Source of the DNA: a virus
IMG/VR virus record: IMGVR_UViG_3300013099_000024
Location: 1-55,286 of that record
Strand: one strand, 5' to 3'
Length of the DNA stretch: 55,286 bases
Below are positions 1 through 41,264 of this stretch, in pieces. The notes under the pieces were generated by a model. It made no database searches. It was not told the DNA's origin and saw nothing but the letters and a program-made list of their open reading frames with translations. The position numbers and the translations under genes were made by a program. Position 1 is the stretch's first letter. Each line of letters begins with the position of its first letter.

Positions 1-21
1 GGCTTTGGAGGAGGTGTCGTA

Positions 22-3000
22 ATGAAGGATTGGAGGAATTATGATCCACGGAGTATTCCTGACGATGAGTTACTATTTGATCATGCGATTGTTCACAGTT
101 GGTGGAATAATCCGAAGCTACGGCCTGTAGGGTGTACTGAGGAAGACGTCAAGCGTTTACATGACATGATCGTCCGCGAAATGGAACGCAGAGGAATGAA
201 GCATGATAGTCCGCTGAAGTTTGCAGATGTGAATTCCTTCCGCAATGAGCCAATGGGGAGAGAGGTTTCGTTGGAGGAGGTACTGAAGTATTTCAAGGAG
301 CCGATTGTCATCAGTCGTGGGTTTGTTACGTTAGTCGGTGGCCTTCCGAATCGTGGGAAGACAGATGGTGACATTGATATTCTCATCAGATGGCCAGAGA
401 ACACACCCGATGAGGTAGTTCATCCGATACGGTTTAGGTTGGGTAGAGCGTTGCCTGCTGAGTTGTCGAAGAGGGTGCAGTTCTTGATGGATAAGTATCA
501 TGGACCTTTTACGAGTCATGTGCCATTATACGATTTAGTACTAGTACCAGCGCAGCAACAGCTTGTGGCTATGTCTGTCGATGAGATCAAGGGCATCCTT
601 GACGAGAAGACAAGATCGATTTTCTTGGATCATATGGATATCCAGAACATACAAGTCTTGGTAGTTCCGTTTGCTGGTACAGGATTGTTCATTCATGATG
701 CGTTGAAGAGAAATCCGAATCTGGTAGTGTATGCCAACGATTTTGCTAGTTGGTCTCGTGTATGTCTGAAGAGCCTGCTGTTGGGAGTTGAGGAAGACAT
801 CGAACATGTGAAGGAGAAGTACGGATTGAAGGGTTATCCGAATTACGCTGTTATTCTAGCACTGGTCAAGTGGTTTAACGAAGGGAAAGAAGGTGACCTG
901 AAGCAATATGCGGAGTATTTTGCGCAAAAGTATAAACCGCTGAATGCGAAAAATGTGCACATCTTCCAGATGGATGCACGCGAATTTGTGAAGCAGGTCG
1001 AAGGTGACATTGCGTTCGTCAACCCGCCGAAGATGACAAGGAGAGGTGAAACGCTGTGGAAGAAGTTTGATGAGCTCGATTCGTTGATTGAAGGAAAACC
1101 GATCGCCCGAGAGCATGATTTAGATCTAGATCAGTTGTTGGGCGATGTAATCAAGAATCTAAGAGTGAAGAAGGTTTACGTCAATACGATCCGTGGAGGG
1201 AAGCCATCAGTTAGTAGGTTCAGTCATCAGGAGATTATCAAGGTAGGTCGTGATACTCTGTCATTGATCAACAAGGAGGACGATACGACTCCAAAAGTGG
1301 TTCTCGCCACGATATGTGGCAAGACGAAGGCAGACATCGATTACGGCTACCCACATGAGCTATGGGGAGAGAAGGAAGAGGTCAGTGAGTTACATAAGAC
1401 AGGATTGCCGTATGCAGTGATCAGCTATCGATATGGTTTAGCATGGTGGGATACAAAATATCCGTACTATGACGAATGGGAGAGTGAAGGATTACAACCG
1501 CTAATCGAAAAGGCTAAGCGGGCAATGAGACCAGGAGTTCAGGCAATGATAGTGTATCTTAAGAGTTTTCCACATGGACGTAAGATTGTGCACGAATTGC
1601 AGAAGGCATTACCTGATGTGGAGTTCTACGTGGCAACGGATTTGAAGCAGGCGCTAGAACTGTATGAGAAGTTGACTGGTGATGAGGTCGAAGATCCGAG
1701 ACAACAGAAGTTGTTTGAGCTTCGTGATGAGGAGGCCGAGAAGGAGGCTAAGCAGTCACGTGATGAGGACAAGATTGAGCCGCTAAGGTTCTTCTATCCG
1801 CTGAAGGCGACGTTAGGATACCATGAGGGTGAGGTCTATAATCTGGAGCAAATACTGTCGCACTTCAAGTATCCTGAGGACTACCCGGTCGTATGCCAGA
1901 AGAAGTATGATGGACTGAGGATCATATGGATGAGGAAGGGAGATAAAGTAATTGCACGCACCGACGATGGTACAAGATGTGACGACAGATTTCCGACGTT
2001 GGTGAAGATGCTCAAGGAATTACCTATTGATGCCATTGTCCTCGACAGTGAGGTTGAAGGCTGGACAAAAGATGGTGAACACTGGGGTAGAGAGATTACG
2101 GCTGGATATGCGAGAGCTCACGATCAACCAGCGGATGACGCCAATTTTGTTGCCAATGTGTTTGACGTCCTATATGTGGATGGTTTGCCCAAGCACCATG
2201 AGTTGGATATTCATGGAGATTTGCACAAGCAGCCGTATGAGGTACGACTGAGGGTATTGGAATATATCGGGTCATTAGCTGGATGGCAATCGACAGATGA
2301 GGTACCAAAGACTCCGGGTTTCAACATTGTACCGTCGTATTGGTTGAAGAAACCGGATCCAAAGGAGTTGGAGAGAATACTGAAACATATCAGGGATCTG
2401 CCTGGTAGTGAAGGTGCGATGTTGAAGAGTGCGAAGAGTGATTATCCACTAACAGGGCATACCAATCTGTGGTTGAAGTACAAGAAGTCAGCCGACATAC
2501 ATGCAGTAGTCATCGAGAGGTTACCAACGAGGACGGAAGGTGTATACCGCTACAGAGTGGGACTCCTCTTGCCTAGTGGATGGAAGGCTCCGAAGGATGA
2601 GATCAAGGAGATTACGTTGAAGAATGACCAGAAGGTAAAAGTGCTGGATGTTGGAAAGACGTTTAATACCAACAAGAAGCTGGAGCCTGGAGACATTGTG
2701 ACGGTAATGTTTCATACGTTGTTCGTCTACGATGATGGTCGAGTGAAGGTATATGAACCCAAGTTATACGAGGTGAGGCCAGATCAGATCATACCGGATA
2801 CTGTAACGGATGCAATTAGGATTGCGGAAAAGGCAGGAATTCTACAGAGGAAAGAGAGCAAGCAGTTTACAATAGGCGTTAGAGATATGACAGATGAAGA
2901 GTTGATAATGTTACATAGTATGCTTCATTGGCAGTTATGGTTTGGTGATAGTCAGCAGGAAGACTTAGAAGAGTTACATGCAGAGATTGCAGATGAACTT

Positions 3001-5436
3001 GAGGCCAGAGGATACATGCATCTTTCACCTTTATATGACTATTATGGTAATGTGCCCGAAATGCAAGATATTCAGGTAGGAGCAACAGATGGAGTAAGTC
3101 ACGAAGATATGACGAGAAACTTTGCAAAGTACGAAATTCGACAATGGGCAGTAAACTACCTAGCGAGACAAGGTAGGACAGTGGATGTTATTCTTGAGAT
3201 GTTTGGTGGTTATGGTTATTGTACTAAGTGGTACAGGGATGTCTTAGGTGTGAAACCAAAACGGCATATCGTTATGGAGGCTGATTCAGACAAGGTTGCT
3301 ATATTAAAGGAGAAGTTTGGAGACTCGATTGAGGTGATGCAAGGCAATAATGTACACTTACTACAGCAATTGTCTCTGGAGAAGGTCGATATATTGGATG
3401 TGGATCCCTATAACCATGCACATGAACAATTGGAAGTATTTTTGACGTCTTACAAGGGATCTGATCCTGTAGTAGTCGTAGGTACAGAAGGTCGTCTAAT
3501 GATGTTTATACGCAACTTCCGTCTAAACCTGAGGCGTCATTTCTACGTAGAAGATGCACCTGATGAGTTAGTAGAGCTAAGACCATATTTACCTGTATTT
3601 CCGAGAATTTTGCATGAATATCTGAGTAACTTGGCTGCTAAACATGGGTGGACGTTTCAACTTTTGGCGTTTAACTTCTTACCATCAGGTCATAGTTGTT
3701 ATTGGATGGGTGTTTTGACTCGCAAGAAGGCAATGTCGTCGGTACTATATGTAATACCTCATTGTCGGGCCAGTATAGATGTGCAAAAATTCAAGACGGT
3801 TTATCCATGGGAACTTTATAAGAGTGTATGGAATAACAGAATTTATGCTAAGTTAAGACACGAGAACCTACCATTTGCAGTACTGTCGAGTACCTATGGT
3901 ATTTGGTTCTGGGATGAGAGACGTCCACCTGTAAAAGAAGGCGATCCAACGACGGAGAGATTATTGGCAAAGTTCAAGGAGACTGTAGTACGTATTAAGG
4001 AGCGCGGTTTTTCAACGGTGGTATTCATCACTACAGCTGATGTAACTCATCCGTTCATCAAACAAATGCAACAGTTGCTGGATGAATATGGAATCAAGTT
4101 GATAATACGCAGGCCTGAGGAGTTGTCAAGGAAGGCAAGATATGTCATACAGTTTCACTTCCGTGGAGGGTCGGTGCACGCCGACTTGCGAATTGAGAAG
4201 CCTGATGGGGAGGCTCTCGAAGGTTGGACGTTGGCAATCCAGGAGGAGGATGCGTTCGAGAAGGAGGTAATGAAGCACTGGAAGGTTGAGAAGGACGGCA
4301 ACTTGCGCAAGGTCTACTGGGATGGAGAGCTGTATTATGTGTATGATATGAAGAACGATGAGGTTCTCGAGTGGAACAAGAAGTTGGACAAGAAGATCCT
4401 CGAATGGCACAAAAAGGCAGTATTCGAGCATCCCGAATGGTGGAAGATTGATCTCAAGACTGGTAAGCCGAAGGAAAGACCACCAGGTGAAGGTGTTGAC
4501 AGCAAGAGACCAGTTGTGGAAAAGATCTGGGCCACGAAGAAGCAAGATGAACCTGAGGAATGGTTAGAAGTAGAGGGAGTCTATCCTCCCAGAGAAATTG
4601 AACCGGTTCCCGGTGGTACTCGATTCTGGCCAGGTATTTTTGTGTTAGTAGACAAAGGCACAGTGGAGTATGGAGCTCAGAAGTCCTACTTCAAGGAGTA
4701 CTTCTTCCATGGTAAGGTTCTCAAGGGTCGTTATGTTGTTAGACTTGTGAATCGCAATGGTAAGATGCAATGGTTGTTCTGGAAGACGGACGATGAGCTG
4801 CCATACGTCATCAGTAAGCGGGCAGTCCAGATAGGTTGGATGCCTCCGAAGGGTGAATCGGCATTGCCTGAGGAATGGGAGAAGAAAGTTCCGAAGGAGT
4901 TAAGATGGTGGGAGACTGACGATTCGAAGGAGGCTAGGAGGAGGCGCGATGAGTTCGCGAAGATGGTGTGGGAGAAGAAGCTGGCGAAAACACCCGATTG
5001 GAAGTCAGTCAAGAGATGGTTGCTGCAGTATCAATGGTGGAGAGGTCCAATAATTGTCAGAAGAGGGCCGACGAGACAGAGGTATTACATGCGATTGATC
5101 AACAATCAGGGTGCGATCGAGATTGAGATGGAGAGCGATCCAAGGGAAGGTAAGACGCCTGCCATAATACGGGTAGTCGATTACGACGAGTTCTGGGATG
5201 TAGGTAAAGACGACATTGTGGAAGTGTCACCTGGAACGCCATACAATCAGACGAAAGCTACACCCAGCTATCTGATTACGCTGGATAGTGGTAAGGCCAA
5301 AGTTCTCGAGGCAGACCCGATGGTGATTAAGATCGATCTTGGGGAAAATCGCACATTTATGATGGTAAGAAGTAGTCCTGATGAAGATGTCTGGGAGGCT
5401 TGGATTGATTACGGTAGTCCGGAGGTGAAGGAGTGA
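22..5436 (+). CDS. Giant fusion: methyltransferase-like / ATP-dependent DNA ligase / methyltransferase-like / LigD-type 3'-phosphoesterase
   Basis: A 1,804-residue protein starting at ATG 22 behind GGAGGAGGTG. Visible order: helical LHxx repeat (about 14-60); nucleotidyltransferase-like patch with GG and DGDID (106-119); SAM-methyltransferase-like fold with PFAGTG (216-221) and NPP (334-336); DUF6884-like segment with YPHELW and YGLAWWD (about 424-540). Then comes an ATP ligase with KYDG lysine K628, LDSEVEG (674-680), EGAMLK (797-802), LWLKYKK (816-822) and an OB-like tail. A second LH repeat (956-1000), second methyltransferase-like domain (EMFGGYG, about 1059) and second DUF6884-like segment (YPWELY, YGIWFWD, about 1240-1350) follow. 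Next is a LigD phosphoesterase-like domain with H1386-x-D1388-x-R1390, then a C-terminal domain. It lies in the head operon next to the protease. Known family role: sealing nicks and cleaning 3' ends; viral role inferred. The methyltransferase and nucleotidyltransferase assignments are weaker than ligase and phosphoesterase. Confidence 0.85.
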   Translation: MKDWRNYDPRSIPDDELLFDHAIVHSWWNNPKLRPVGCTEEDVKRLHDMIVREMERRGMKHDSPLKFADVNSFRNEPMGREVSLEEVLKYFKEPIVISRGFVTLVGGLPNRGKTDGDIDILIRWPENTPDEVVHPIRFRLGRALPAELSKRVQFLMDKYHGPFTSHVPLYDLVLVPAQQQLVAMSVDEIKGILDEKTRSIFLDHMDIQNIQVLVVPFAGTGLFIHDALKRNPNLVVYANDFASWSRVCLKSLLLGVEEDIEHVKEKYGLKGYPNYAVILALVKWFNEGKEGDLKQYAEYFAQKYKPLNAKNVHIFQMDAREFVKQVEGDIAFVNPPKMTRRGETLWKKFDELDSLIEGKPIAREHDLDLDQLLGDVIKNLRVKKVYVNTIRGGKPSVSRFSHQEIIKVGRDTLSLINKEDDTTPKVVLATICGKTKADIDYGYPHELWGEKEEVSELHKTGLPYAVISYRYGLAWWDTKYPYYDEWESEGLQPLIEKAKRAMRPGVQAMIVYLKSFPHGRKIVHELQKALPDVEFYVATDLKQALELYEKLTGDEVEDPRQQKLFELRDEEAEKEAKQSRDEDKIEPLRFFYPLKATLGYHEGEVYNLEQILSHFKYPEDYPVVCQKKYDGLRIIWMRKGDKVIARTDDGTRCDDRFPTLVKMLKELPIDAIVLDSEVEGWTKDGEHWGREITAGYARAHDQPADDANFVANVFDVLYVDGLPKHHELDIHGDLHKQPYEVRLRVLEYIGSLAGWQSTDEVPKTPGFNIVPSYWLKKPDPKELERILKHIRDLPGSEGAMLKSAKSDYPLTGHTNLWLKYKKSADIHAVVIERLPTRTEGVYRYRVGLLLPSGWKAPKDEIKEITLKNDQKVKVLDVGKTFNTNKKLEPGDIVTVMFHTLFVYDDGRVKVYEPKLYEVRPDQIIPDTVTDAIRIAEKAGILQRKESKQFTIGVRDMTDEELIMLHSMLHWQLWFGDSQQEDLEELHAEIADELEARGYMHLSPLYDYYGNVPEMQDIQVGATDGVSHEDMTRNFAKYEIRQWAVNYLARQGRTVDVILEMFGGYGYCTKWYRDVLGVKPKRHIVMEADSDKVAILKEKFGDSIEVMQGNNVHLLQQLSLEKVDILDVDPYNHAHEQLEVFLTSYKGSDPVVVVGTEGRLMMFIRNFRLNLRRHFYVEDAPDELVELRPYLPVFPRILHEYLSNLAAKHGWTFQLLAFNFLPSGHSCYWMGVLTRKKAMSSVLYVIPHCRASIDVQKFKTVYPWELYKSVWNNRIYAKLRHENLPFAVLSSTYGIWFWDERRPPVKEGDPTTERLLAKFKETVVRIKERGFSTVVFITTADVTHPFIKQMQQLLDEYGIKLIIRRPEELSRKARYVIQFHFRGGSVHADLRIEKPDGEALEGWTLAIQEEDAFEKEVMKHWKVEKDGNLRKVYWDGELYYVYDMKNDEVLEWNKKLDKKILEWHKKAVFEHPEWWKIDLKTGKPKERPPGEGVDSKRPVVEKIWATKKQDEPEEWLEVEGVYPPREIEPVPGGTRFWPGIFVLVDKGTVEYGAQKSYFKEYFFHGKVLKGRYVVRLVNRNGKMQWLFWKTDDELPYVISKRAVQIGWMPPKGESALPEEWEKKVPKELRWWETDDSKEARRRRDEFAKMVWEKKLAKTPDWKSVKRWLLQYQWWRGPIIVRRGPTRQRYYMRLINNQGAIEIEMESDPREGKTPAIIRVVDYDEFWDVGKDDIVEVSPGTPYNQTKATPSYLITLDSGKAKVLEADPMVIKIDLGENRTFMMVRSSPDEDVWEAWIDYGSPEVKE

Positions 5437-6455
5437 TGCGATATGAGTCATTGGAGAAGGTCCAATTTGAGCCTGCTGGAGAAGTGCTACAAGTACAGGG
5501 AGTGCTCATTCATCCAGGCACATTTACTGGGTTGGATGGAAAGCCAGTGACGTTTACGAAGGAGGCAATCGAGGAGATTGCAGAAAACATAGATGGAAAT
5601 GTACCACTGAAGATTACACATTTCAGTGACAAAATCATAGGTTATGCAACACACTTCAGTCTGGATGATAAGACGAGTGAATTGAAGTTCAAGGGTTACG
5701 TCTTTGATGAGGACGCAATTGAGAAGATCCGTAATGATGGTTACGACAACATCTCGGGTGAGTTTGATGTCGATGTAGATGGAGATGGTAAAGTAGTAGG
5801 AGGTGTGTTAAAGGCAATCGCATTTGTTACGAATCCGGCTGTTCCGGATGCACATATTGAAGAGGCAAAGTCTGTAGCTTTATCGAAAGGAGGTGATGAT
5901 ATGGGTGAAGAGGTAGAGATGGCTAAGGATGAGAGACCCACAAAGGATGAGTTCTTGGCATATATCGAAGGGAAGTTAGTTGAAGCGGGTCTAGGTAAGG
6001 AAGCTATACAGAAGGTCATGAAGGTTCTCAAGGATGCCATCAAGGTGCCATATCCGTATCCATATCCACAGCCTGCGGCGATGAGTGAGGGAGAGGTGAC
6101 TGATATAAAGGAATACGAGAAGAAGCTGTCTGAGTATGAGACTGAAATTGAGAGACTAAGCAAGGAGCTCGAGGAGTATAAGACCAAGTTCGCAGAGATC
6201 AAGGAGAAGGAGTTGAAGACACTCGTTGACGAGCTCAAGAAGTTAGGACTCAGCAATCCGGAGGCCATTGTGGAGGGCATTGAGAATGTTGAGCAGAAGA
6301 TTGCGATTCTACAGAGGATCAAGGAGAATCTAGCCTTAAGCAGGCCTGCGGAGGAGGAGAGTGTTAAGGTTGTCGCAGAAGAGGAAGACGAAACGAAGGC
6401 TTTAGCCAAGGCATTTGGATTAAATGAGGAGGAAGTTAAGGAGATATTCGGTTAA
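5436..6455 (+). CDS. Prohead maturation protease with C-terminal scaffold
   Basis: A 339-residue protein (ATG 5436, SD GGAGGTGAAG) whose start overlaps the stop of the ligase fusion. The N-terminal half (about 1-150) has the Mu/HK97-like prohead protease look: a short beta-rich domain with NVPLKITHF, a YDNISGEFDV stretch and a closing NPAVPDAHI. The C-terminal half is acidic with a long predicted coiled coil (about 210-290, E/K-rich heptads), as in scaffolding proteins. Its place just before decoration and capsid genes is the normal one. A second in-frame start lies at 5901. Catalytic residues cannot be fixed by eye. Confidence 0.75.
   Translation: MRYESLEKVQFEPAGEVLQVQGVLIHPGTFTGLDGKPVTFTKEAIEEIAENIDGNVPLKITHFSDKIIGYATHFSLDDKTSELKFKGYVFDEDAIEKIRNDGYDNISGEFDVDVDGDGKVVGGVLKAIAFVTNPAVPDAHIEEAKSVALSKGGDDMGEEVEMAKDERPTKDEFLAYIEGKLVEAGLGKEAIQKVMKVLKDAIKVPYPYPYPQPAAMSEGEVTDIKEYEKKLSEYETEIERLSKELEEYKTKFAEIKEKELKTLVDELKKLGLSNPEAIVEGIENVEQKIAILQRIKENLALSRPAEEESVKVVAEEEDETKALAKAFGLNEEEVKEIFG
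5886..5897 (+). promoter_or_regulatory. Strong internal ribosome binding site of the nested scaffold
   Basis: AAAGGAGGTGAT, complementary to the 3' end of archaeal or bacterial 16S rRNA, three bases before ATG 5901 and inside the protease reading frame. Such a perfect site inside a gene is unlikely unless it is used. Confidence 0.7.
5901..6455 (+). CDS. Nested scaffolding protein (internal in-frame start)
   Basis: ATG 5901 is in frame with the protease and preceded by a full-strength ribosome binding site (positions 5886-5897), which is itself translated as SKGGDD in the long form. Initiation here would give a 184-residue protein with the acidic, coiled-coil scaffold half only, like lambda C/Nu3. 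The SD match and spacing are seen directly; the separate product is inferred. Confidence 0.65.
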   Translation: MGEEVEMAKDERPTKDEFLAYIEGKLVEAGLGKEAIQKVMKVLKDAIKVPYPYPYPQPAAMSEGEVTDIKEYEKKLSEYETEIERLSKELEEYKTKFAEIKEKELKTLVDELKKLGLSNPEAIVEGIENVEQKIAILQRIKENLALSRPAEEESVKVVAEEEDETKALAKAFGLNEEEVKEIFG

Positions 6456-6470
6456 GGAGGTGACTGATGT

Positions 6471-6884
6471 ATGGCAGTTGGATGCGTGATAAATGATGCA
6501 AACATTGTGCCTTTCGTCACGGAGGATGCTCTGGATAGCGCTGGATATGTTCTTACTACTGGATCTGCTGAGGGCAAGGTTAAGAAGGCTGCTGCTGGTG
6601 ATGTAGTGGTTGGTGTTGCATTCAAGGATACCAAGAACATGGATGGTACTCCGCAAGCTAACGTGGAGGTTGGTGTATTCATCAAAAGAGGCGCAGTTGT
6701 CTATCTCAAGCTTGCACCCGACAACCAGGAGGTCTACTATGGTGCTCCACTATGCATTGACAATGTCACTGCAGGTACGGTTGACTATAGAGATGGTACC
6801 AACGAGACAGGTGACGTAATTGCCATCGCTCTGGAGGCTAAGGCTGCGAATGATGGTGGTCTGATAAAAGCACTCCTACTGTAA
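6471..6884 (+). CDS. Head decoration / capsid cement protein
   Basis: A 137-residue protein rich in Gly, Ala, Val and short beta strands, with no charged coils. Length and position between protease/scaffold and major capsid protein match small capsid-stabilising proteins (gpD or DUF2190-type). ATG 6471 follows GGAGGTGACTGATGT. Gly-Asp turn pairs such as AAAGDVVVGVAF are typical of these beta barrels. Role inferred mainly from position. Confidence 0.65.
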   Translation: MAVGCVINDANIVPFVTEDALDSAGYVLTTGSAEGKVKKAAAGDVVVGVAFKDTKNMDGTPQANVEVGVFIKRGAVVYLKLAPDNQEVYYGAPLCIDNVTAGTVDYRDGTNETGDVIAIALEAKAANDGGLIKALLL

Positions 6885-6898
6885 TGGAGGTGAGATAA

Positions 6899-7759
6899 AT
6901 GGTATTAGGTGTTACGGTTTCTGATCCTGAGTTGAGGAAGATATCGGCCATACAGAAGGCAATCTTCAGAAAGGCAGAGGAACTTCTGGTTGGGAAGAAT
7001 GCCGTCCCCATTCAGAGGATTAAGAGTTTAGACATCAGGCTTGCAATTCCTAAGGCCAACTACATCGAGGCCAAGAAGGTTGCTGAGGGTGCAGTTGCGG
7101 ATGTCGAAACAATCGAATGGTTCCAGGCTAACTTTAGCATGGAGAAATGGCAGAACAGGGTGCGTGTCACTGACGAGGCTATTGCCAGGAATGCACTTGC
7201 AAATCAGCTCAGACTAAGCATTGATTCGGCAGCCAAAGGTCTGCAGATTGCCAAAGACAAGGAGATCTTCGCTACACTCCTCGACGGTGCTGGACAATCA
7301 ATACCTGCATCAGCTGCATGGAATGCTTCGGGTGCAACACCTGAGGATGATGTTGCTGCAGCAATACAGGCAATTATGGAGAATACGGTCATAACGGATG
7401 CTGATCTCAAGAACATGAATCTCTTTGTACCAGCTGGACTCATGGGTTATCTGAAGAAGAGAGTTGAGATTGCTAACATGCAGGTTCCTCTGGAGAAAGC
7501 GCTTCAGGAAGAATTCGGCATCAATATCTTCTACACTAAGAACTTGACAACTGATGCCTTACTGGTTATCAAGAGCAATGAGACTGCCATCCACTTCGAG
7601 TACAATGGTACTGATATAAAGACAACCGAGGAAGTCAGAATTCCTGGTGTTGGTACAGATTACATAATTACTCAGTACTTCAAGACGATTGTCATCCCAG
7701 ACGACGAAACTGTGACTACGTCAAGTAGGATCTGTAAGATAACGGGAGTTAAGGCATAA
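6899..7759 (+). CDS. Major capsid protein (HK97-fold type)
   Basis: A 286-residue protein, ATG 6899 behind GGAGGTGAGATAA. The sequence has the HK97-like plan: N-terminal helical arm (1-45), mixed alpha/beta core with a long helix (about 95-125), and a C-terminal strand-rich part containing TDALLVIKSNETAIHF. It sits in the canonical slot after the decoration gene and before the head-tail connector and is the best capsid candidate in the window. No HK97 crosslinking chemistry is claimed. Confidence 0.8.
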   Translation: MVLGVTVSDPELRKISAIQKAIFRKAEELLVGKNAVPIQRIKSLDIRLAIPKANYIEAKKVAEGAVADVETIEWFQANFSMEKWQNRVRVTDEAIARNALANQLRLSIDSAAKGLQIAKDKEIFATLLDGAGQSIPASAAWNASGATPEDDVAAAIQAIMENTVITDADLKNMNLFVPAGLMGYLKKRVEIANMQVPLEKALQEEFGINIFYTKNLTTDALLVIKSNETAIHFEYNGTDIKTTEEVRIPGVGTDYIITQYFKTIVIPDDETVTTSSRICKITGVKA

Positions 7760-7761
7760 TT

Positions 7762-8160
7762 ATGACGTTTGATCCTTCTCTTATTTTTTCGGTGCGCAGA
7801 GAATTGAATGATGTACCTGAGGACTATTTGTCGGATGAGGTTATTTATCAGGCACTTTCGCAAGCAGACGCATACCTGAACAAAGTTTTGGATCCTGATG
7901 TAGATGAAGTTTATCGTCAACATTGTTTGGTGGTCGTAGCAGCCTATTTTGCCTACGTCAAATACGTGGCATCCGTCGAGCGTGGACTCGGGAGTATTCC
8001 AGCGACATCGGCAGAGAGGTTGAGAGCACTAAGAGAGTTGGCAGTTGCACTGGTTAGGGTTGTTTCGAGGTTCAACATTCGAGATGACCTCAGTATTGAC
8101 GATGCGGTCGTTGGTAGTGCGATAGCAGTAGGCCTAACAGAGAGTGTTTTAGATGGTTGA
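7762..8160 (+). CDS. Head-tail connector (gp6-like adaptor)
   Basis: A 132-residue mostly helical protein whose N terminus reads as a short DPSLIFSVRRELNDVPEDYLSDEVIYQAL helix set, the usual pattern of head-tail adaptor proteins (in pieces: DPSLIF, LNDVP, YLSDEVIYQAL). It begins two bases after the capsid stop and overlaps the next gene by 8 bases. A weak SD suggests coupling to capsid translation. Confidence 0.6.
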   Translation: MTFDPSLIFSVRRELNDVPEDYLSDEVIYQALSQADAYLNKVLDPDVDEVYRQHCLVVVAAYFAYVKYVASVERGLGSIPATSAERLRALRELAVALVRVVSRFNIRDDLSIDDAVVGSAIAVGLTESVLDG

Positions 8161-8776
8161 GTTTATTTTACGTCCTATTTATCGTTTAGATTTGACGCAG
8201 TATCGTTTAGTCATGAAAATGTTGTTCCGTCTCGAGAAAAAGGACTGGGCTCGATTACGTAAGGCAGCAGGTCGCGGTTTAGTGAAGGCTTGGCAAGAGG
8301 CCGTTAAGAGGTCGAACATCCAGGAGCGCACGGGGTGGTTGTCGAGATCAGCGCGTTTTAGGTCGGTAGGAAAGTATGAAGTCGAGTTAGTCGTTATCGC
8401 ACATTATGCTCCAGCTTTATATTATGGAGCTAATCCATCACCCGGTAGGTATGTACCATACATGCCGTGTATTGGTAGAGGAGCAAGGCTAGTGAATCCT
8501 TGGAGACGAGTAAAAGTCAAGTTAAGGGAATATGTACCTGGATTGATTAAGCCTTCAGGTATTTCGATAGCTACCTACAAGCGATGGAAGCGAGGAGTTA
8601 AGAGAGGTCGTTGGCCCGTTGGTTGGAAGATCGTACAATACGATATTGGCATACATCCTGGTATTAATGCGAGGAAGTTGGGGTTGAGGAGAGAATTTGA
8701 GTATCTGGCACCTATTTATGCTGGTGTAAATGTAATCCGCACCACTGAACGTATCACTGGGGTGAAACTGGTATGA
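8153..8776 (+). CDS. Head-tail joining / neck protein (HK97 gp10-like)
   Basis: A 207-residue very basic protein. The middle has WQEAVKRS followed by RTGWLSRSARF, like the TGxLRxS signature of HK97 gp10-type neck proteins, then a HYAPALYYGA strand. It is longer than usual for the family (about 120-150), with an extra Trp/Arg-rich C-terminal half. Overlaps both neighbours, so it is translated as part of the connector block. Confidence 0.55.
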   Translation: MVEFILRPIYRLDLTQYRLVMKMLFRLEKKDWARLRKAAGRGLVKAWQEAVKRSNIQERTGWLSRSARFRSVGKYEVELVVIAHYAPALYYGANPSPGRYVPYMPCIGRGARLVNPWRRVKVKLREYVPGLIKPSGISIATYKRWKRGVKRGRWPVGWKIVQYDIGIHPGINARKLGLRREFEYLAPIYAGVNVIRTTERITGVKLV

Positions 8777-9138
8777 TGTCACAAATGTTGAAGGATGTTG
8801 TAGAGGCATTAGAAGCCGCTCACTTTAAGGTAAATTTGAAACCTCAAGAAAAGTTGGATCCATACAAAGAGTTAGTGGTAGATGTTAACGACATCTCAAT
8901 TGAGGTTGAAACTCCTCACACCTATATCATTACCTTACGATTATTCATCACATTTATTGCCATAGATCGTGCACGATTGCTGGATGTCATCGAAACTATT
9001 ATCCAGGCCATCGAAAAACATGGAGTTCCAAGTGCCGATAGCTACCAAATTACCGACGTCATGATCGACGTACCCGGTGAATTTGTAGTGGCAACAATTA
9101 GTGTTGACATAAGGGGGGTGATGTCTGTTGGTAATTAG
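8773..9138 (+). CDS. Tail terminator / tail completion protein
   Basis: A 121-residue alpha/beta protein with a helix (MLKDVVEALEAAHF), strands (ISIEV, YIITLRLFITFIA), a second helix and a last strand, the fold order of tail terminator proteins (gpU/gp17-like). Starts at ATG 8773 overlapping the previous stop and ends inside the next gene. Position between neck and tail tube agrees. Confidence 0.55.
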   Translation: MMSQMLKDVVEALEAAHFKVNLKPQEKLDPYKELVVDVNDISIEVETPHTYIITLRLFITFIAIDRARLLDVIETIIQAIEKHGVPSADSYQITDVMIDVPGEFVVATISVDIRGVMSVGN

Positions 9139-10051
9139 TAGATATGTGAAGGTTGGAATGGAAGATACATTTGGTGTCGCAGTGACTCCAACTCGAGGAG
9201 TGAGGGTGCAATCAGTGGAACCTAACATTGATAGACAGCCAATTTTTGATGAGACGATCGAGGACTTTCTACCACCTGATGCTGTTGGAGGACCGCTGAA
9301 GGTTGGTCTGTCGATGGAGTTGGTGGCAAGGCCGAATCAGATTACGGAGATTCTGCAGGCACTGATGGGAAGTTCAACAGTGACCTCAACTAGTGAAGAC
9401 GTGTACAAATGGGACTTTACGTTAGGCACTCCGCAATCGATGACGGTTGAGGTTGGAGATCCGTATGAGACATTACAGATCTATGGTGTAGGCGTCAACA
9501 GTGTGGAGTTTACATTCGAGGCCAGGGAGTTTGTGAAGATGTCAGTAGATTGCATTGCCAAGAACTATAAGCAGTCTTCGTTTTCGGAACCAACATACTC
9601 CAATGATAAGCCGTTTGTCTTCTATGAAGCACAGCTACGTGTCGATGGATCCAAAGTAGCAGGTACAAAGAGTGTGTCATTGACGGTTGATAGAGGTATT
9701 GCAGACGACGAATATGTGTTGGACGATTTCACACTCAATGCTCTACGACCAGAGAGAACAGAGATTACGGGAAGAATGACATTAACGGAAGACGAGATTG
9801 CAGAACTGAGAAGAGCACTATATGGCTCTACAACTGCTTCCTCGATCGGGCCAACGAATGACGTGGGTTCTGTGCAGTTGACGATCGTGTGTGATAGGGG
9901 TGACTACCAACTGAAACTTAATGCACCTATTGCCGTGTATACGACAGGTTCATACAGTGTCTCAGGGCGCGATAGGATTGATCGTGAGATTGAGTTCAAG
10001 GTGGTTGGAGATTTCACGATAACGTTGGTTAACAATGTCCCGGAGGTTTGA
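9128..10051 (+). CDS. Major tail tube protein
   Basis: A 307-residue beta-rich protein started by TTG 9128, chosen because GGGGGGTGATG lies eight bases upstream. The N terminus (RYVKVGMEDTFGVAV) and the closing VSGRDRIDREIEFKVVGDFTITLV are typical of siphovirus/myovirus tube proteins of this size, as are internal VDGSKVAGTKSVSLTVDRGI strands. Followed directly by the tail chaperone, as expected for a long tail. Confidence 0.75.
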   Translation: MVISRYVKVGMEDTFGVAVTPTRGVRVQSVEPNIDRQPIFDETIEDFLPPDAVGGPLKVGLSMELVARPNQITEILQALMGSSTVTSTSEDVYKWDFTLGTPQSMTVEVGDPYETLQIYGVGVNSVEFTFEAREFVKMSVDCIAKNYKQSSFSEPTYSNDKPFVFYEAQLRVDGSKVAGTKSVSLTVDRGIADDEYVLDDFTLNALRPERTEITGRMTLTEDEIAELRRALYGSTTASSIGPTNDVGSVQLTIVCDRGDYQLKLNAPIAVYTTGSYSVSGRDRIDREIEFKVVGDFTITLVNNVPEV

Positions 10052-12620: not shown

Positions 12621-12626
12621 TTGGTG

Positions 12627-15152
12627 ATGACGTGGAAGGTACAGAAGTGGGATGGATCGTCGTGGGTGGATGTTGCTTTTTCGGATTTGAGTGTCAGCAA
12701 ATCATTGGACGAGTTAGATTCAGCAACAATTACGATGCCTAAGACGGAAAATGTAGCGCGGGGTGATCTGATACGAATTACCTATGATACGACGACAGTA
12801 TTTGAGGGTTACGTACAAAGAATTGTTCGTCGTGTAGATGTCATGGAGGTTCAATGTCTTGAGAGGGCAGTTGAGTTACGCAAATCGATTGTCAATTATG
12901 GAGGATCATATACGCATACATGGGTTAATTTGACGGTAAACGATATCGTTGATCGTATACTGGACAGTACTTCATGGTCTCGTGGCAGTGATGATGCGAC
13001 TATTATTCCAGCAATCAGCTTGGAATATGTAGACAGACTGACAGCATTGTCGAAAGTCATCAAGGATATGCGAGGACTACACATGTGGTTCGAGGGAACG
13101 AAGGTCTATTTTGGTTCATCACGGACAGACCGCACGTCAACGATCATACGTTACCAGGAGATTGAGGATGATGAAGACGAGACCGAGATGTATGACAAGA
13201 TCATCGTCATTGGTGGAGGCAGTGTAAACAGGCACATAGTTGCGGAACGAGGTTCTGGAGACAAGGTTGGGATCTTTGAGTATCCAGATGCTGTTAGTCA
13301 GGAGGAACTGAATAAGATTGCGGATACGTTGTATGATTACTATTCGACGGAGCGTAAACGTGTGTCAGTTACGATGCCATTATGGCCAGAGGTGAATCCT
13401 GGAGATTTGGTGAACATTGATGGTACTACATACATCGTGTATGATGCACAGCATGATTTGGCGACGACGAGAATATCGGCAGGATATTATTCGCCGTCGT
13501 TGGGTAGGATCTTAAGGCAGTTGCGTAAGGTTCAGCAGGCAGTAGGTCGTGTGACGCAGGGCGTAGTAGAAACGTTTGAGATTCCACTTGGCTATCAGCA
13601 TGTAGGGTCGGGGTCGCCGGCGAGATGGAACATTTCGGTTCAGGATAAGGTGTTGTCGGCGAAGTTGAGATTGAAGTTGACGAAGTGGAAGAAGTTGACA
13701 GACATTCAGAATGCTACGACAGGTGTTTCTGTGAACAGTGGTTCTGCGAATATACAGTCGAATACGACGGGAGTGTCTATCGGGACAGGACATGCGAATA
13801 TAGAGTCATCTACTACAGGCATAACGGTTAGTTCAGGGAAGGCCAACATTGAATCGTCGACTACAGGAATAACCATTAGCTCTGGACAAGCCAACATAGG
13901 TTCTTCGACAACTGGCATTACAATTGGATCTGGTCAAGCTAACATAGGATCATCTGCTACAGGAATCACCATAGATTCGGGTGAAGCTGAAATTCAATCA
14001 AATACAACAGGAATCACATTGATGAAAGGTTATGCTGACATAGATAAGGCTTCTACCGGAATCTCAACAGCCTTTGGAGAGGCCGACATATCGAGAGAGT
14101 ACACGGGTGCTTCCATAATGGCAGGAGGTGAGTCAGGAATTGTAGTTGACTACGTGGATATTGAACCGTGGGAAGATTTACCATACGACCATAATTGGAC
14201 TTTCTATGGACCTGACGGATATTCGTTTGTAATTTGCGTGGTTAATCTGTTAATACATGCGCCCAGTGATAGCGGAACTGATGGAATGTGCTATCTCTAC
14301 TGGTGGAACGGATGGGAAGGTGAATGGGAAGAGAAGGATCGTCATAGGTATGTCATCAGGACGTCGGATGAATACGCACATGTAACACTGGTGGGAGTTG
14401 CACGCGGTTATAGTGGAGATACTGCAGATTGGAGGGTGAGGATTACAGAGTCGAATGGTGGTGAATTGAGGTGGCTACACATTAGGTGCTTCTTTGTAGA
14501 GCTTCATGAACATAGTTTGGATGAAGGTTCGGGACATACACACTATGACAGTGGGCATAGTCATGGCATTAATGATCCAGAGCATGATCATGATGATTTA
14601 GGTCATAGTCATGGGGTAGATGATCCTAAGCATGATCATATTGATTCAGGACACAGTCATGGATTGTCTGATCCGCAGCATTCACATACAGATAGCGGAC
14701 ATGACCATGGAGTTTCAGATCCAGGACATGGGCACTCGGATAGCGGTCATAGTCATGGGACGAACGATCCTGGGCATGGACATGAAGACAGTGGTCATGA
14801 GCACGGGGTTTCGGATCCTGGTCATGGGCATTCAGATAGTGGTCATGAACATAGTTTGAGTGATCCTGGACACAATCACACGGATTCAGGTCATGGACAT
14901 GGAATTACGGATCCTGGACATGCACATGGGATAGACAATGATGCTACAGAGTTGTCATTGTATCCATCGAATGTCAATGTAGTTTTCAATGGGTCGACCA
15001 TCGCAGGTCCATATTCGGGAGGGGCAGAAACGACGATTGAGATTGACATTACGGATTACCTTACTGAGGGTAATCATGTTTTGGAAATTACTTCTGATAC
15101 TGCAGGCGGTATTGAGGGTTCGTTAGTAGTTGAGAAATTCGTTAGGAGGTGA
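12627..15152 (+). CDS. Tail hub / tip protein with two 8x16-residue repeat arrays
   Basis: An 841-residue protein; ATG 12627 is preferred to TTG 12621 because GGGGTGA sits at the right distance. The first 300 residues resemble phage tail hub (gp27/Tal-like) domains, with YGGSYTHTWVNLTVNDIVDRIL and MRGLHMWFEGTKVYFG. From residue 362 there are eight 16-residue TTGIxxxSGxANIxSS units, then a globular beta domain (about 490-640). Eight 16-residue DSGHxHGxxDPxHxH units follow, and a closing beta domain. The His units resemble metal-binding tracts of tail spikes and fibres. Likely at the tail tip, contacting the host. Confidence 0.65.
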   Translation: MTWKVQKWDGSSWVDVAFSDLSVSKSLDELDSATITMPKTENVARGDLIRITYDTTTVFEGYVQRIVRRVDVMEVQCLERAVELRKSIVNYGGSYTHTWVNLTVNDIVDRILDSTSWSRGSDDATIIPAISLEYVDRLTALSKVIKDMRGLHMWFEGTKVYFGSSRTDRTSTIIRYQEIEDDEDETEMYDKIIVIGGGSVNRHIVAERGSGDKVGIFEYPDAVSQEELNKIADTLYDYYSTERKRVSVTMPLWPEVNPGDLVNIDGTTYIVYDAQHDLATTRISAGYYSPSLGRILRQLRKVQQAVGRVTQGVVETFEIPLGYQHVGSGSPARWNISVQDKVLSAKLRLKLTKWKKLTDIQNATTGVSVNSGSANIQSNTTGVSIGTGHANIESSTTGITVSSGKANIESSTTGITISSGQANIGSSTTGITIGSGQANIGSSATGITIDSGEAEIQSNTTGITLMKGYADIDKASTGISTAFGEADISREYTGASIMAGGESGIVVDYVDIEPWEDLPYDHNWTFYGPDGYSFVICVVNLLIHAPSDSGTDGMCYLYWWNGWEGEWEEKDRHRYVIRTSDEYAHVTLVGVARGYSGDTADWRVRITESNGGELRWLHIRCFFVELHEHSLDEGSGHTHYDSGHSHGINDPEHDHDDLGHSHGVDDPKHDHIDSGHSHGLSDPQHSHTDSGHDHGVSDPGHGHSDSGHSHGTNDPGHGHEDSGHEHGVSDPGHGHSDSGHEHSLSDPGHNHTDSGHGHGITDPGHAHGIDNDATELSLYPSNVNVVFNGSTIAGPYSGGAETTIEIDITDYLTEGNHVLEITSDTAGGIEGSLVVEKFVRR
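13710..14093 (+). repeat. Eight 16-codon repeats (TTGI-SG-ANI type)
   Basis: Exactly eight tandem 48-bp units inside the tail hub gene. The consensus protein unit is S-S-T-T-G-I-T-I-x-S-G-x-A-N-I-x with alternating hydrophobic and small residues, as expected for a beta-helix or collar-like stalk. The third to fifth units are the most alike. DNA identity between units is moderate, so the array is old or diversified. Confidence 0.85.
14544..14927 (+). repeat. Eight 16-codon His-rich repeats (DSGHxHGxxDPxHxH)
   Basis: Exactly eight tandem 48-bp units, about four His per unit, inside the tail hub gene. HxH pairs alternate with DP turns, a layout known from metal-binding fibre segments (HxH iron sites in T4 gp37 are the classic case). 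Same copy number and period as the array at 13710-14093, though unrelated in sequence. Confidence 0.9.
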
Positions 15153-24106: not shown

Positions 24107-24895
24107 TCACCTCAATTCCTTTCCACGCCATGCCACTGCCACCACATTATGCTCATGAATGCTCTCCTCATGCTCAGCTACAATCACCCAGTCATCGATC
24201 CAACTCCACTCATTTACTACCTTCACTGCCTTTCTTGCGACATCCTCTACAAACATCGGATGATCTTCTGCCTGTTGACACCAATATAGTTCTTCTACCC
24301 TCTTCATCTCGGCCCATGGCATCAACTTCAGTTCGTCCACCAAATCAGTAATCATCCACGAAGTATACTGAGGGAGCGATTCATTGAACTCACTCAACCG
24401 CACAGTAATCGTCATCCGACTGCGTTGCATGTGTGGAATACCTCTTCCTGTAGCTCTCACCATCTCCAGACTACACGGACATACGCTGGCATATGGTAGG
24501 GTAAACGTCAGATACCATCTACAGTTGTCCTGGAAACGGCGGCCTTCGAGAACAAAATTCACAGTGAAACGTGGACCAACGGCATAGTCGATGATATAGG
24601 ACCATTTGCACTTCCAGTAGGTATTGCTGCTATCATGAGTGGAGGCTAATTCCTCAAGGAAGTTATCGTCGCACGCAATTTCCTCACCTTCCCAGTCGAG
24701 AAGGACGCCTGCCAATCGACTCATATGAATGCCCTTTCGATCGGTGAGACTGACATAGGCAGATTGCCTAGTGATCACAGGAGCTCCATCCCACGTGCGT
24801 CTGACGTTGAGTCCACGGATGCCGACCTTTTGGAGAGAAATGCCGCTGTCGTCCGATTGGCTTGCGTAGTCAGGCAGAAACTTTACCGATGACAA
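24107..24895 (-). CDS. folE2: GTP cyclohydrolase I, type IB
   Basis: A 262-residue protein, TTG 24895 start set by GGAGGTGATAGTC. Family signs: KVGIRGLNVRRTWDG near the start, then VSLTDRKGIHMSRL, a zinc/catalytic YASVCPCSLEM (about 140-150) and GIPHMQRS. The family turns GTP into dihydroneopterin triphosphate, first step of the 7-deazaguanine pathway. It is followed on the same message by the replication genes and preceded by queE and queD. Confidence 0.85.
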   Translation of the reverse strand: MSSVKFLPDYASQSDDSGISLQKVGIRGLNVRRTWDGAPVITRQSAYVSLTDRKGIHMSRLAGVLLDWEGEEIACDDNFLEELASTHDSSNTYWKCKWSYIIDYAVGPRFTVNFVLEGRRFQDNCRWYLTFTLPYASVCPCSLEMVRATGRGIPHMQRSRMTITVRLSEFNESLPQYTSWMITDLVDELKLMPWAEMKRVEELYWCQQAEDHPMFVEDVARKAVKVVNEWSWIDDWVIVAEHEESIHEHNVVAVAWRGKELR

Positions 24896-24900
24896 GACTA

Positions 24901-25563
24901 TCACCTCCAACCTGCTGTGATATGCAACCTTGGTGAAATTCTCGTCTGCACTATCCCATTCTCCCACATCCACTGGCGGATACCTTCCAAACTTTTCGCA
25001 ATCTCCTCAACCGTCGTGCCTTGCGGCATGAGATACACATTCGGACTATCGATCAACTCCAAATATGGTTCCAACGTATCCATCGAATACCTTCCAATTC
25101 CCCATCGTTCTCCATCCGACACAATCTTGACAAACAACTTCCTCTTATGCTTCCCTCTCCTCACCTTCTTCAACCACCACTCGAGATCTCCCAGCCTCTT
25201 CGGTGACACCACAATGCGGCTAAACAACCCAAAATCAAACCTCTTCACCGTTCCATTCGTCTCCAACCCAACATACTCCGACCAGTCCCATTGCCACCAA
25301 CGAACTAACAACTCTCTCAACTCCTTCCACTGTAACAATGGCTCACCACCCGTGACGATGAGATGAGGATTCGCATAGTCCCATAGTTGGCGGAGTATTT
25401 CATCAACAGACATAGTCGGATGACGACTAGAGTTAGACCACGCGTGTTTGGAGTCACATTGTTCACAACCAAGATTGCAGCCCCTTAACCTAAGGAAAAC
25501 TGCCCTCAGCCCGATGTCAGGTCCCTCCCCCTGAATACTTTCGTATATCTCGGTAACTTTCAT
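24901..25563 (-). CDS. queE: 7-carboxy-7-deazaguanine synthase (radical SAM)
   Basis: A 220-residue protein starting MKVTEIYESIQGEG (ATG 25563, SD GAGGTGATAGGC). Iron-sulfur motif GCNLGCEQC (C-x3-C-x2-C, about 33-40) and VTGGEPLLQW are the QueE core. NGT and SPKR follow as expected. It makes CDG from the QueD product. It lies between folE2 and queD, and a T6 run sits just before its SD. Confidence 0.9.
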   Translation of the reverse strand: MKVTEIYESIQGEGPDIGLRAVFLRLRGCNLGCEQCDSKHAWSNSSRHPTMSVDEILRQLWDYANPHLIVTGGEPLLQWKELRELLVRWWQWDWSEYVGLETNGTVKRFDFGLFSRIVVSPKRLGDLEWWLKKVRRGKHKRKLFVKIVSDGERWGIGRYSMDTLEPYLELIDSPNVYLMPQGTTVEEIAKSLEGIRQWMWENGIVQTRISPRLHITAGWR

Positions 25564-25585
25564 GCCTATCACCTCAAAAAATAGG
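25564..25585 (-). terminator. T-run between queD and queE
   Basis: On the minus strand CCTATTTTTTGAGGTG: T6 (25581-25576) followed at once by the SD of queE. The same 16-base string occurs before the third QueC-like gene. It could be an archaeal U-tract terminator or a partial one that lowers queE. Confidence 0.35.
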
Positions 25586-25591
25586 AAGACA

Positions 25592-25987
25592 CTATGGACC
25601 ATCTACTGGAATGGAATACGTCGCTGACTGCTTCTCGGACTCCCAGATGGTGACTTTTATGTAAGAGATCTGTTTGCCTGCAACATTAATCACTCTGTCT
25701 GCTATCCACTTTGCTATGCACTCACAGGTGGGGTCTGATTGAAATCCTATGACAGAATCCAATACCTCAAACAGAGGGTCGGATACATTTAGCAATGTCT
25801 TGTGATCCAACTGTTGGATGATCTCTTTGATACATCCAAAATCCACTACCATTCCTGTCTGCTTGTCTGGAACCCCTTCTAACTCGACTCTCACCTTCCA
25901 CGTATGTCCATGCAGATTTCTACACTTCCCGGGATGCTTCATCAACCTATGTGCAGCCGCGAACGAATCCTCAACAACTAGTCTCAT
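25592..25987 (-). CDS. queD: 6-carboxytetrahydropterin synthase
   Basis: A 131-residue protein, ATG 25987 with GGGGGTGAT five bases upstream. Zinc and catalytic landmarks of the PTPS/QueD family are present: AAHRL (12-16), CRNLHGHTW (24-32), MVVDFG (about 50), LDHKTLLN (about 62), PTCECIA (about 85) and KVTIWES (about 112). Converts the FolE2 product to CPH4. Part of the 7-deazaguanine block. Confidence 0.9.
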   Translation of the reverse strand: MRLVVEDSFAAAHRLMKHPGKCRNLHGHTWKVRVELEGVPDKQTGMVVDFGCIKEIIQQLDHKTLLNVSDPLFEVLDSVIGFQSDPTCECIAKWIADRVINVAGKQISYIKVTIWESEKQSATYSIPVDGP

Positions 25988-26071
25988 CCTCAATCACCCC
26001 CGAACGGTTTGTGATACACATTACTACTATCTGACCATAGCAATCGACTACAGGAATCATCTACTATCACC

Positions 26072-31420: not shown

Positions 31421-31496
31421 AACACAATCTCTTCGGACATTCCTCTGGATCCCAATCGTCACACAAACCCTTGGCTGCTGCACGACAAATCCTCAT
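31395..31496 (-). CDS. 33-residue Cys-rich micro-protein upstream of polB
   Basis: ATG 31496 overlaps the stop of the DpdA-like gene (ATGA), and the 3' end overlaps the polymerase start by 26 bases. Four spaced Cys: C-x7-C-x7-C-x4-C (CRAAAKGLC, EECPKRLC). The same kind of spacing appears in the 36-residue peptide at 32228. Possibly a zinc or iron-sulfur binding regulator. Confidence 0.5.
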   Translation of the reverse strand: MRICRAAAKGLCDDWDPEECPKRLCYEVQVCVD

Positions 31497-32221
31497 GGTC
31501 CACACCACTTGAGGATTGTTTCTACATTCTTCCTCGCTAACCTCCTAACACGTTCGTCGAAGGCTTCTCCCAGAAGATTGACTCGCTTCACTCTCTTGAT
31601 GATCAAATTGTGTTCCAAATCCAATCCATGTACAGCCGCCGTAAATGGCATGCTGGTGTCGAACGATTCTACGAAACCTTGTAGCTCCTTAAGTTCAAGT
31701 AGACAATCCAGACCTAGGGCATGCCAATATTTCTCACGCGTTTCAGGTATTACTTCCTTAAACCACTTAACTACACCTGCTCTGCACCAACCCTTGCGAT
31801 ACATCCAAATAGGCACTGCATATGCGTCGACATACGGATCGACCTTCTCAGCGAAGTCTGGTAGCACTGCAATCGTTTCGCCTTGGAGGACTACCATCAC
31901 CTCATATGGTTTTGTTCCCGAGTACTTCTTCACAAACTCTCTCACAGCTTGCACTGTTCCTATACTACTCTTCATGACTTCTGGCGCCACAACAAACACT
32001 CTTTCGCCGCTGATCTGCCTACCAATCGCATCCAACTCTGCCTCCGTTACAGGAGCACCTTCGTAGATACCATTGTCCACGATCACAATCTCCCAGTCGT
32101 GTTCGAGATAGAACCTCCGGTACTTCTCATGTGGCCAATACTGTGCAAGGACGAAGGCATATGGGATGTCTTCGATGAGATCAAAGAAGTCCAACGGACT
32201 GATAGGATGATAGTGAATCAT
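31493..32221 (-). CDS. DpdA-like DNA 7-deazaguanine transglycosylase (TGT superfamily)
   Basis: A 242-residue protein. Signs of the phage DpdA branch of TGT: IVDNGIYEG (about 47), a VAPEVMKSS... stretch, EVMVVLQGETIA (about 110), AYAVPIWMYRKGW, ALGLDCLLEL (about 170) and GFVESFDTSMPF (about 185), which parallel the D-(N/S)-G, V-Q-G and closing s-x-D-(S/T) signatures. The family exchanges guanine for preQ0 or derivatives in DNA. With folE2, queD, queE and queC nearby the assignment is well supported by context. Confidence 0.7.
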   Translation of the reverse strand: MIHYHPISPLDFFDLIEDIPYAFVLAQYWPHEKYRRFYLEHDWEIVIVDNGIYEGAPVTEAELDAIGRQISGERVFVVAPEVMKSSIGTVQAVREFVKKYSGTKPYEVMVVLQGETIAVLPDFAEKVDPYVDAYAVPIWMYRKGWCRAGVVKWFKEVIPETREKYWHALGLDCLLELKELQGFVESFDTSMPFTAAVHGLDLEHNLIIKRVKRVNLLGEAFDERVRRLARKNVETILKWCGP

Positions 32222-37569: not shown

Positions 37570-37850
37570 TTTCTCACCTTAAACCATCCACCGCTCATTT
37601 GTTCGAAAACATCATCCAATGACTTCAACACACCCATCAGTTCTCGTCTCCCGAAAAACATCCTATGACCCCAATCGACTCTCACCAAGTGACCTTCTCT
37701 CATCAGCCGATTGAGATAATATCTCACCAACCGATGCTTTTCAGGAATACCCAACCATTCGGCGACATCAGTAGCTTCATACAATAGATCCAAATCAAAC
37801 CTACTTAGGCATACATATAGGACTACCCAACGATTGAATCGTTTAGACAT
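37566..37850 (-). CDS. Winged helix-turn-helix protein
   Basis: A 94-residue protein, ATG 37850. HTH core DVAEWLGIPEKHRLVRYYLNRLMREGHLVRVDWGHRMFFG (about 30-70, read in pieces: VAEWLGIPEKH, YYLNRLMREGHLVRV) is a wHTH with wing. Its start overlaps the end of the third QueC-like gene. Likely DNA-binding regulator. Confidence 0.6.
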   Translation of the reverse strand: MSKRFNRWVVLYVCLSRFDLDLLYEATDVAEWLGIPEKHRLVRYYLNRLMREGHLVRVDWGHRMFFGRRELMGVLKSLDDVFEQMSGGWFKVRK

Positions 37851-41044: not shown

Positions 41045-41147
41045 CCTTGTCTACAAACAGTCTTATTATCGGTACGCCCTCTCTCAACACGTCCAAAGAT
41101 ATCGCTATCCTATTGAACGTGCATGTACCACCGGACGAGAAGAACAT
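41022..41147 (-). CDS. 41-residue unknown protein
   Basis: ATG 41147; encodes TCTFNRIAISLDVLREGVPIIRLFVDKDDEDEC. The end overlaps the next gene's start by 23 bases, like its neighbours. Amphipathic beta-helix-beta. No good SD. Confidence 0.4.
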   Translation of the reverse strand: MFFSSGGTCTFNRIAISLDVLREGVPIIRLFVDKDDEDECI

Positions 41148-41254: not shown

Positions 41255-41264
41255 CGTGTCCAAC

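Follow-up and report, generated by a model that had tools for sequence, protein, structure and literature searches.

A giant open reading frame (ORF) in the window, by which we mean the whole 55,286-base virus record analyzed here, encodes a protein with a DNA end-repair core and lies at the edge of the head genes. Fusion of the related proteins to a prohead protease in many uncultured viruses points to a DNA-repair kit as cargo of the particle. The domain identities, the retention of most catalytic residues, the gene order and the protease fusion are all read from the sequence. Taking these together, we consider it somewhat probable that the giant protein belongs to a new family of "polyvalent" head-module proteins, and that it serves as a kit for end joining and repair, which enters the procapsid together with the protease and reaches the cell along with the genome.

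A single giant ORF

The ORF is one uninterrupted frame of 1,804 codons (Table 1). A strong Shine-Dalgarno sequence (GGAGGAGGTG) lies just 5' of the ATG at position 22, and this start is therefore credible, even though the window begins there. No terminal repeat was seen in the window, so its left end is probably missing. No terminase was detected in the window with a profile based on the archaeal virus ANMV-1. The repeats found towards the right end were discarded as probable chance occurrences. The ORF itself is real, with a Shine-Dalgarno sequence and a core that recurs in other viral contigs, and chance is ruled out as the source of its domains because of the length of the ORF and the homology described below.

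The initial annotation had called a single 1,804-residue fusion of a ligase and a LigD-type phosphoesterase (PE). This call was largely right, and is backed by the single frame, Pfam, a PE profile and the predicted fold, but it underestimated the content of the ORF. Beyond these two enzymes there are a pol-beta-like nucleotidyltransferase (NTase), an OB domain, a pair of helical repeats and, in degenerate form, a further copy of the PE (PE2).

Table 1. Features of the giant ORF and of other genes in the window.
Feature	Position	Strand	Details
Shine-Dalgarno GGAGGAGGTG	7..16	+	read directly, immediately 5' of ATG 22
Giant ORF, NTase-ligase-PE polyvalent protein (probable)	22..5436	+	1,804 aa
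Helical hairpin module 1	43..210	+	aa 8-63; weak Pyr_excise (pyrimidine dimer glycosylase) match; AF2 pLDDT about 90-95
Pol-beta-like NTase (candidate)	256..543	+	aa 79-174; motif GGLPNRGKTDGDIDILI; Asp117/Asp119, third Asp171; weak PDB matches to NTase/MNT proteins
Methyltransferase-like domain 1 (MT1)	607..1281	+	aa 196-420; PFAGTG / ANDF / NPPK motifs; Pfam D12 0.0012, sub-threshold; Foldseek class I MTases
DUF6884 (YaaA-like) copy a	1276..1701	+	aa 419-560; motifs CGKTK, ISYRYG
ATP-dependent DNA ligase nucleotidyltransferase domain	1786..2532	+	aa 589-837; catalytic Lys628
Ligase OB domain	2527..2853	+	aa 836-944
Helical hairpin module 2	2881..3024	+	aa 954-1001
Methyltransferase-like segment 2 (MT2), tentative	3109..3756	+	aa 1030-1245; EMFGGYG and DVDPY motifs; RrnaAD 0.12
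DUF6884-like copy b	3748..4146	+	about aa 1243-1375; LSSTYG retained, CxxxK lysine lost
LigD-type 3'-phosphoesterase domain 1 (PE1)	4138..4746	+	about aa 1373-1575; Q1377, H1379, H1386, D1388, R1390 kept
Degenerate second PE-like copy (PE2)	4999..5391	+	about aa 1660-1790; family profile positions 288-398 match PE structure 3p43
Prohead (head maturation) protease and scaffold gene	5433..6455	+	phrog_976 1.2e-12; Phage_scaffold 5.9e-6, below cut-off
Capsid cement-like protein	6471..6884	+	PF22758 4e-5, below cut-off
Major capsid protein	6899..7759	+	Phage_capsid_4 7.4e-9
FolE2	24107-24973	-	PreQ0/7-deazaguanine gene
QueE	24901-25602	-	PreQ0/7-deazaguanine gene
QueD-like	25592-25993	-	PreQ0/7-deazaguanine gene
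Three QueC homologues	32775-33476, 34206-34904, 37843-38373	-	last one short, divergent

The ligase and nucleotidyltransferase domains

Pfam DNA_ligase_A_M matches residues 619-821 of the giant ORF (E = 4e-14), and PHROG and NCBIfam concur. Ligase motifs I, III, IIIa, IV and V are all present (KKYDGLR 627-633, DSEVEGW 675-681, NVFDVLYV 712-719, GSEGAML 795-801 and LWLKYKKS 816-823), together with the OB domain; motifs I, III, IV and V, from which the KYDG ligase had first been recognized, are intact. An alignment of 26 family ligases matched the archaeal DNA ligase 3rr5 at 7e-26. Lys628, Glu797 (motif IV) and Lys819 are each retained in 25 of these 26 members.

These matches bear on the idea that the protein is an RNA-repair machine, directed against host RNases that cut tRNA, in which the ligase and the PE would seal RNA. 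Some relatives do carry 2H/LigT phosphoesterase domains, and a few members have weak RNA_ligase matches. However, the latter are at about 1e-3 in two members, whereas DNA_ligase_A_M is found in 27 of 32 members (best 3e-27). Given also the match to 3rr5 and the OB domain, we regard RNA repair as highly improbable.

The motif GGLPNRGKTDGDIDILI and weak fold matches suggest that residues 79-174 are a pol-beta-like NTase. The Pol-beta/MNT signature G[GS]..GDxD and a third acidic residue are present in the window. The first glycine precedes the first aspartate by 11 residues, presumably the same spacing as in pol beta, which we take only as a lead. The GG and GDID elements are conserved in the family (Asp117 in 21/22 members and Asp119 in 22/22), and the third acidic residue, Asp171, is found in 16/22. 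The domain is kept across 22 members and is 40% identical between the window and ANMV-1. The window and ANMV-1 proteins were aligned domain by domain; a full-length MAFFT alignment misplaces the NTase. There was no significant Pfam match for the NTase, and its matches to PDB nucleotidyltransferases were weak. The giant ORF had no Pfam match to an AEP (LigD-type) polymerase domain.

Helical hairpin modules occur one to several times in most family members. We do not claim homology of these modules to Pyr_excise: the score was 23.2 against a cut-off of 23, and fell below threshold when the segment was excised.

The phosphoesterase domains

An H-x-D-x-R motif like that of LigD had originally pointed to the PE, and both profile and fold comparisons bear this out. 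The motif QFHFRGGSVHADLRIE lies at residues 1377-1392, and the family PE profile matches the archaeal LigD-type PE structures 3p43 (2e-6) and 3p4h (4e-6). An AlphaFold2 model of residues 950-1804 was mostly of high confidence over the PE region. In a Foldseek search with the PE model, the top seven PDB matches were all LigD-type PEs with a probability of 1.00; against 3p43, the target TM-score was 0.81. Fold prediction, which had been proposed as a check of four segments of the protein, recovered the PE fold.

In LigD, His42, His48 and Asp50 form the metal triad, Arg52, His84 and Tyr88 hold the phosphate, and Gln40 supports the site; point mutants of His84 and of Tyr88 are both inactive (PMC8656161). 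PE1 has counterparts of the metal triad (H1379, H1386, D1388), Gln40 (Q1377) and Arg52 (R1390), each present in 29-32 of 32 members. They are in the same order as in LigD, with one residue more between the two histidines. In an alignment with 5dmp, Glu1510 of PE1 occupies the His84 position and Trp1514 the Tyr88 position. Across the 32 members, the His84 position is Glu in 20 and Gln in 7, and the Tyr88 position is Trp in all 32. PE1 keeps the metal site and has an altered phosphate site. Its chemistry is uncertain: PE1 may act differently or be dead, because His84 and Tyr88, which are both needed in LigD (PMC8656161), are replaced.

The replacement of His84, the degeneration of PE2 and the loss of the motif lysine from DUF6884 copy b (DUF6884b) would also fit a mainly structural protein, in which the enzyme folds were inherited and now serve in an internal head or core protein with most active sites dead. 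We give this explanation very little probability, as the catalytic residues of the ligase and the two signature aspartates of the NTase are retained in all but at most one of the members aligned.

The methyltransferase-like and DUF6884-like inserts

Two blocks interrupt the core. MT1 and DUF6884 copy a (DUF6884a) lie between the NTase and the ligase, and MT2 and DUF6884b lie between the ligase and the PE. The initial annotation described these as duplicated methyltransferase/DUF6884 modules with two methyltransferase-like glycine loops. The DUF6884 duplication is upheld by the similarity of DUF6884b to DUF6884a (BLASTP 3e-6). Residues 419-560 match the Pfam DUF6884 domains of two relatives (L022 and L003); copy a had no direct Pfam match to DUF6884 (PF21818; CxxxK and LSAxxG motifs). 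The methyltransferase part, however, is not a duplication, with no detectable similarity between MT1 and MT2. Profile and fold matches weakly indicate that MT1 is a D12-like class I methyltransferase. MT2 is tentatively considered a methyltransferase from its motifs, and the AlphaFold2 model is poor over this segment.

DUF6884 is a YaaA-like DNA-binding domain linked to damage recognition; among its members, YfjM recognizes lesions of the abasic and RNA-base kinds (PMC11701544). Lesion binding by YfjM fits a repair role for the giant protein.

Relatives in uncultured viruses

Using core alignments to scan viral contigs, we identified 58 loci on 56 contigs that carry relatives. Nothing was recovered from viral contigs with the whole giant ORF as a single query, or with the MT2-DUF6884b segment. 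The NTase-ligase-OB-PE-PE2 core is constant in most loci, and in some is split over two or three genes; a few loci are without one core part or have a diverged form of it. Around the core, accessory domains are swapped. They include uracil-DNA glycosylase, D12 and C5 methyltransferases, a metallo-beta-lactamase fold, 2H/LigT phosphoesterase and a TGT-like domain, which likewise act on DNA or nucleic-acid ends, as well as DUF6884 and inteins. A D12 methyltransferase occupies the MT1 slot of the window in one relative (L029) and the MT2 slot in another (L027). Inteins and LAGLIDADG domains interrupt giant ORFs within the ligase (L007:6578-11782) and within the PE region (L027:8819-13942 and L021:6821-12475).

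Of 50,697 catalogued phage records, ANMV-1 was the only one with the core. Two scans of genome contigs found no relatives, and therefore no named host was obtained, and a search of a viral structure library gave one uninformative match. Weakly scoring ligases of Rhizobium and Bradyrhizobium phages were set aside; they are short and their genes do not adjoin annotated head genes. The domain order was first thought to be undescribed, and a search of viral metagenomes had been proposed. This holds for the exact window architecture, of which there was no second case in the collections searched. The core, in contrast, has a precedent in ANMV-1, and the polyvalent concept has one in a published study (PMC5512222).

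Association with the head module and the prohead protease

In contigs that reach both sides, the terminase gene is followed by a gene in the portal position (product 490-580 aa) and then by those for the giant protein, the protease and the major capsid protein. The prohead protease is fused to the giant protein in 28 loci (26 distinct contigs), at the C-terminus every time; the proteases that form part of the ligase/PE protein in relatives are homologous to that of the window. In the window, the start of the protease gene overlaps the stop of the giant ORF (TGATG). Where the protease is a separate gene, it starts at most about 120 bp from the giant ORF in the window and in 16 of 23 other such loci. 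On the ligase tree, loci with a fused protease are intermingled with loci where it is separate, with at least two changes forced and five by parsimony, and the protease association has therefore been maintained through repeated fusion or fission. The ANMV-1 protease is about 21 kb away, and its core protein is still directly after what reads as the portal.

This fusion or adjacency is the strongest evidence tying the giant protein to capsid assembly. It strengthens the original proposal of a viral DNA-end-repair multi-enzyme that is perhaps packaged, by placing the core between portal and prohead protease; packaging itself we infer. The window protease is a separate gene, and co-packaging there would be expected from the relatives.

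Could the protein simply be a replication or repair enzyme that is not packaged, lies in a late operon, and works inside infected cells on nicks and on DNA that is being replicated or is concatemeric, ahead of packaging? All three core enzymes (ligase, NTase and PE) have repair activities, cellular ligases are produced by many phages (PMC7824862), and in the window the giant protein and the protease are separate. However, the protease fusion in 26 contigs and the conserved adjacency to capsid genes are hard to explain in this way, and the other replication genes of the window (DNA polymerase B, RNR and nucleases) are on the opposite strand; we consider such an enzyme unlikely.

Location between portal and protease would also suit a protein that acts during packaging, bound within the procapsid or close to the portal, to repair nicks, gaps and blocked ends of the entering DNA, and that is not ejected. 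The end-processing chemistry is appropriate for nick repair. We rate this possibility as quite unlikely: a packaging-specific domain was not found, and the polyvalent precedents in passages of PMC5512222 are ejected with DNA. Nothing that we found separates repair during packaging cleanly from delivery with the genome, the explanation that we prefer.

Two ANMV-1 genes (L002, KP703175) are probably misannotated: a "MutT-like phage hydrolase" (1913-3193) and a "hypothetical" (5868-9368) read by eye like a portal and a cysteine-rich MuF-like head protein, respectively. The tail protein at 12621-15152 of the window has His/Asp-rich repeats (DSGHSHGxxDPxHxH) at about residues 660-780, towards its C-terminal part, that are possibly metal-binding.

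Comparison with known systems

Passages of Iyer et al. 2017 (PMC5512222) describe polyvalent proteins, which phages and conjugative elements encode, as large and multi-domain, and predict their delivery together with DNA. Where an assemblin-like peptidase is present, it is, according to these passages, always C-terminal and thought to process the proteins during assembly; P1 DarB is given there as a head protein that protects incoming DNA. The giant protein is likewise very large, joins enzyme domains of different kinds in a single polypeptide and is encoded among head/packaging genes, and the same passages list methyltransferases, pol-beta NTases and 2H phosphoesterases among polyvalent domains. 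A prohead protease is C-terminal in the 26 related contigs, and is encoded by the next, overlapping gene in the window. Unlike the polyvalent proteins in the passages found in PMC5512222, where ligase appears only as RNA ligase and LigD never, this family has a constant ligase-PE-NTase core around which the rest is swapped. The family thus appears to fit the polyvalent class, with a constant DNA end-repair core added.

ANMV-1 is a virus of archaea, with an ANME archaeon as its presumed host (PMC4372165). Its AJP62006, annotated as an "ATP-dependent DNA ligase" (KP703175; PMC4372165), has the same NTase-ligase-OB-PE-PE2 core at 32-40% identity, directly after the presumed portal. It is only 866 aa, without either MT/DUF6884 block or the helical modules, and its protease gene is elsewhere.

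Like bacterial LigD (PMC8656161), the giant protein unites in one chain a domain that adds nucleotides, a 3'-phosphoesterase and an ATP-dependent ligase, and the PE fold and metal-site residues match. The polymerase slot, in contrast, holds an unrelated pol-beta-like NTase fold with a GG...GDID motif in place of an AEP; the PE is without His84 and is duplicated; and the ligase is by score nearer to archaeal and eukaryotic replicative ligases. A further difference from LigD is that no Ku was recognized among the annotated genes.

In Pseudomonas PAK_P1-like and Rhizobium phages, a D12 methyltransferase, also a DNA-modifying enzyme, is annotated as fused to the prohead protease, beside the portal. 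These fusions are without ligase, NTase and phosphoesterase, all three of which are in the giant protein.

Proposed role of the giant protein

We propose that the pol-beta-like NTase, the ATP-dependent ligase with its OB domain, and the LigD-type PE with its degenerate copy make up a three-enzyme end-joining unit, with putative lesion-binding DUF6884 domains and methyltransferases inserted in slots between the core domains. Judging from the gene fusion or overlap, the protein would enter the procapsid alongside the prohead protease and scaffold, and would probably be cut into separate enzymes at maturation. The cut enzymes would remain with the packaged DNA and be ejected together with it. After delivery they could clean, extend and ligate ends, nicks or damaged sites of the incoming linear genome, while the methyltransferases might mark it. 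In a narrower form that we hold tentatively, and as falling somewhat short of probable, this would be a capsid-borne, protease-released NHEJ/BER kit, a LigD-like trio with a pol-beta-type NTase, that repairs or circularizes the genome on entry before viral gene expression.

If delivery with the genome is correct, tailed viruses of archaea, and perhaps of bacteria, import DNA-repair chemistry as virion cargo, much as phages are already known to carry enzymes of replication and antirestriction. Enzymes N-terminal to a fused prohead protease would provide a rule for finding further packaged enzymes. The family is on 56 uncultured viral contigs, yet the catalogued records hold the core only in ANMV-1, and its mix of DNA-end enzymes can be drawn on for ligases, end-cleaning enzymes and lesion-binding domains that are new.

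7-Deazaguanine genes and the host

The window has the PreQ0/7-deazaguanine genes of Table 1. Action of the giant protein on 7-deazaguanine-modified DNA, as first suggested, is no more than a possibility. QueC is present in only 5 of 36 family records, and DUF6884 is tied to damage recognition and not to deazaguanine (PMC11701544). No transglycosylase was identified in the window. A 242-aa protein encoded within the 7-deazaguanine/replication block (31493-32221, minus strand) was considered as a transglycosylase (DpdA/TGT); it matched nothing in Pfam or PHROG and did not resemble the TGT-like domains that relatives carry, and this assignment was rejected as unproven. Three relatives (L005, L042 and L044) carry a TGT-like domain (phrog_887) as the N-terminal part of the ligase/PE polypeptide itself. 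QueE lies 5' of these fusion genes, accompanied in some by QueD and QueC. The L005 and L042 proteins also carry the protease; the L044 contig ends before that point.

The window DNA polymerase B is closest to those of tailed viruses of haloarchaea (27-28% identity), and an XPF-type (ERCC4) nuclease domain is encoded in the window. The virus is tailed and probably infects an archaeon. Across window positions 40000-52500, mostly small ORFs without assignment are accompanied by a GC skew on the plus strand that is very pronounced, reaching -0.61, and by extreme purine loading of the minus-strand genes.
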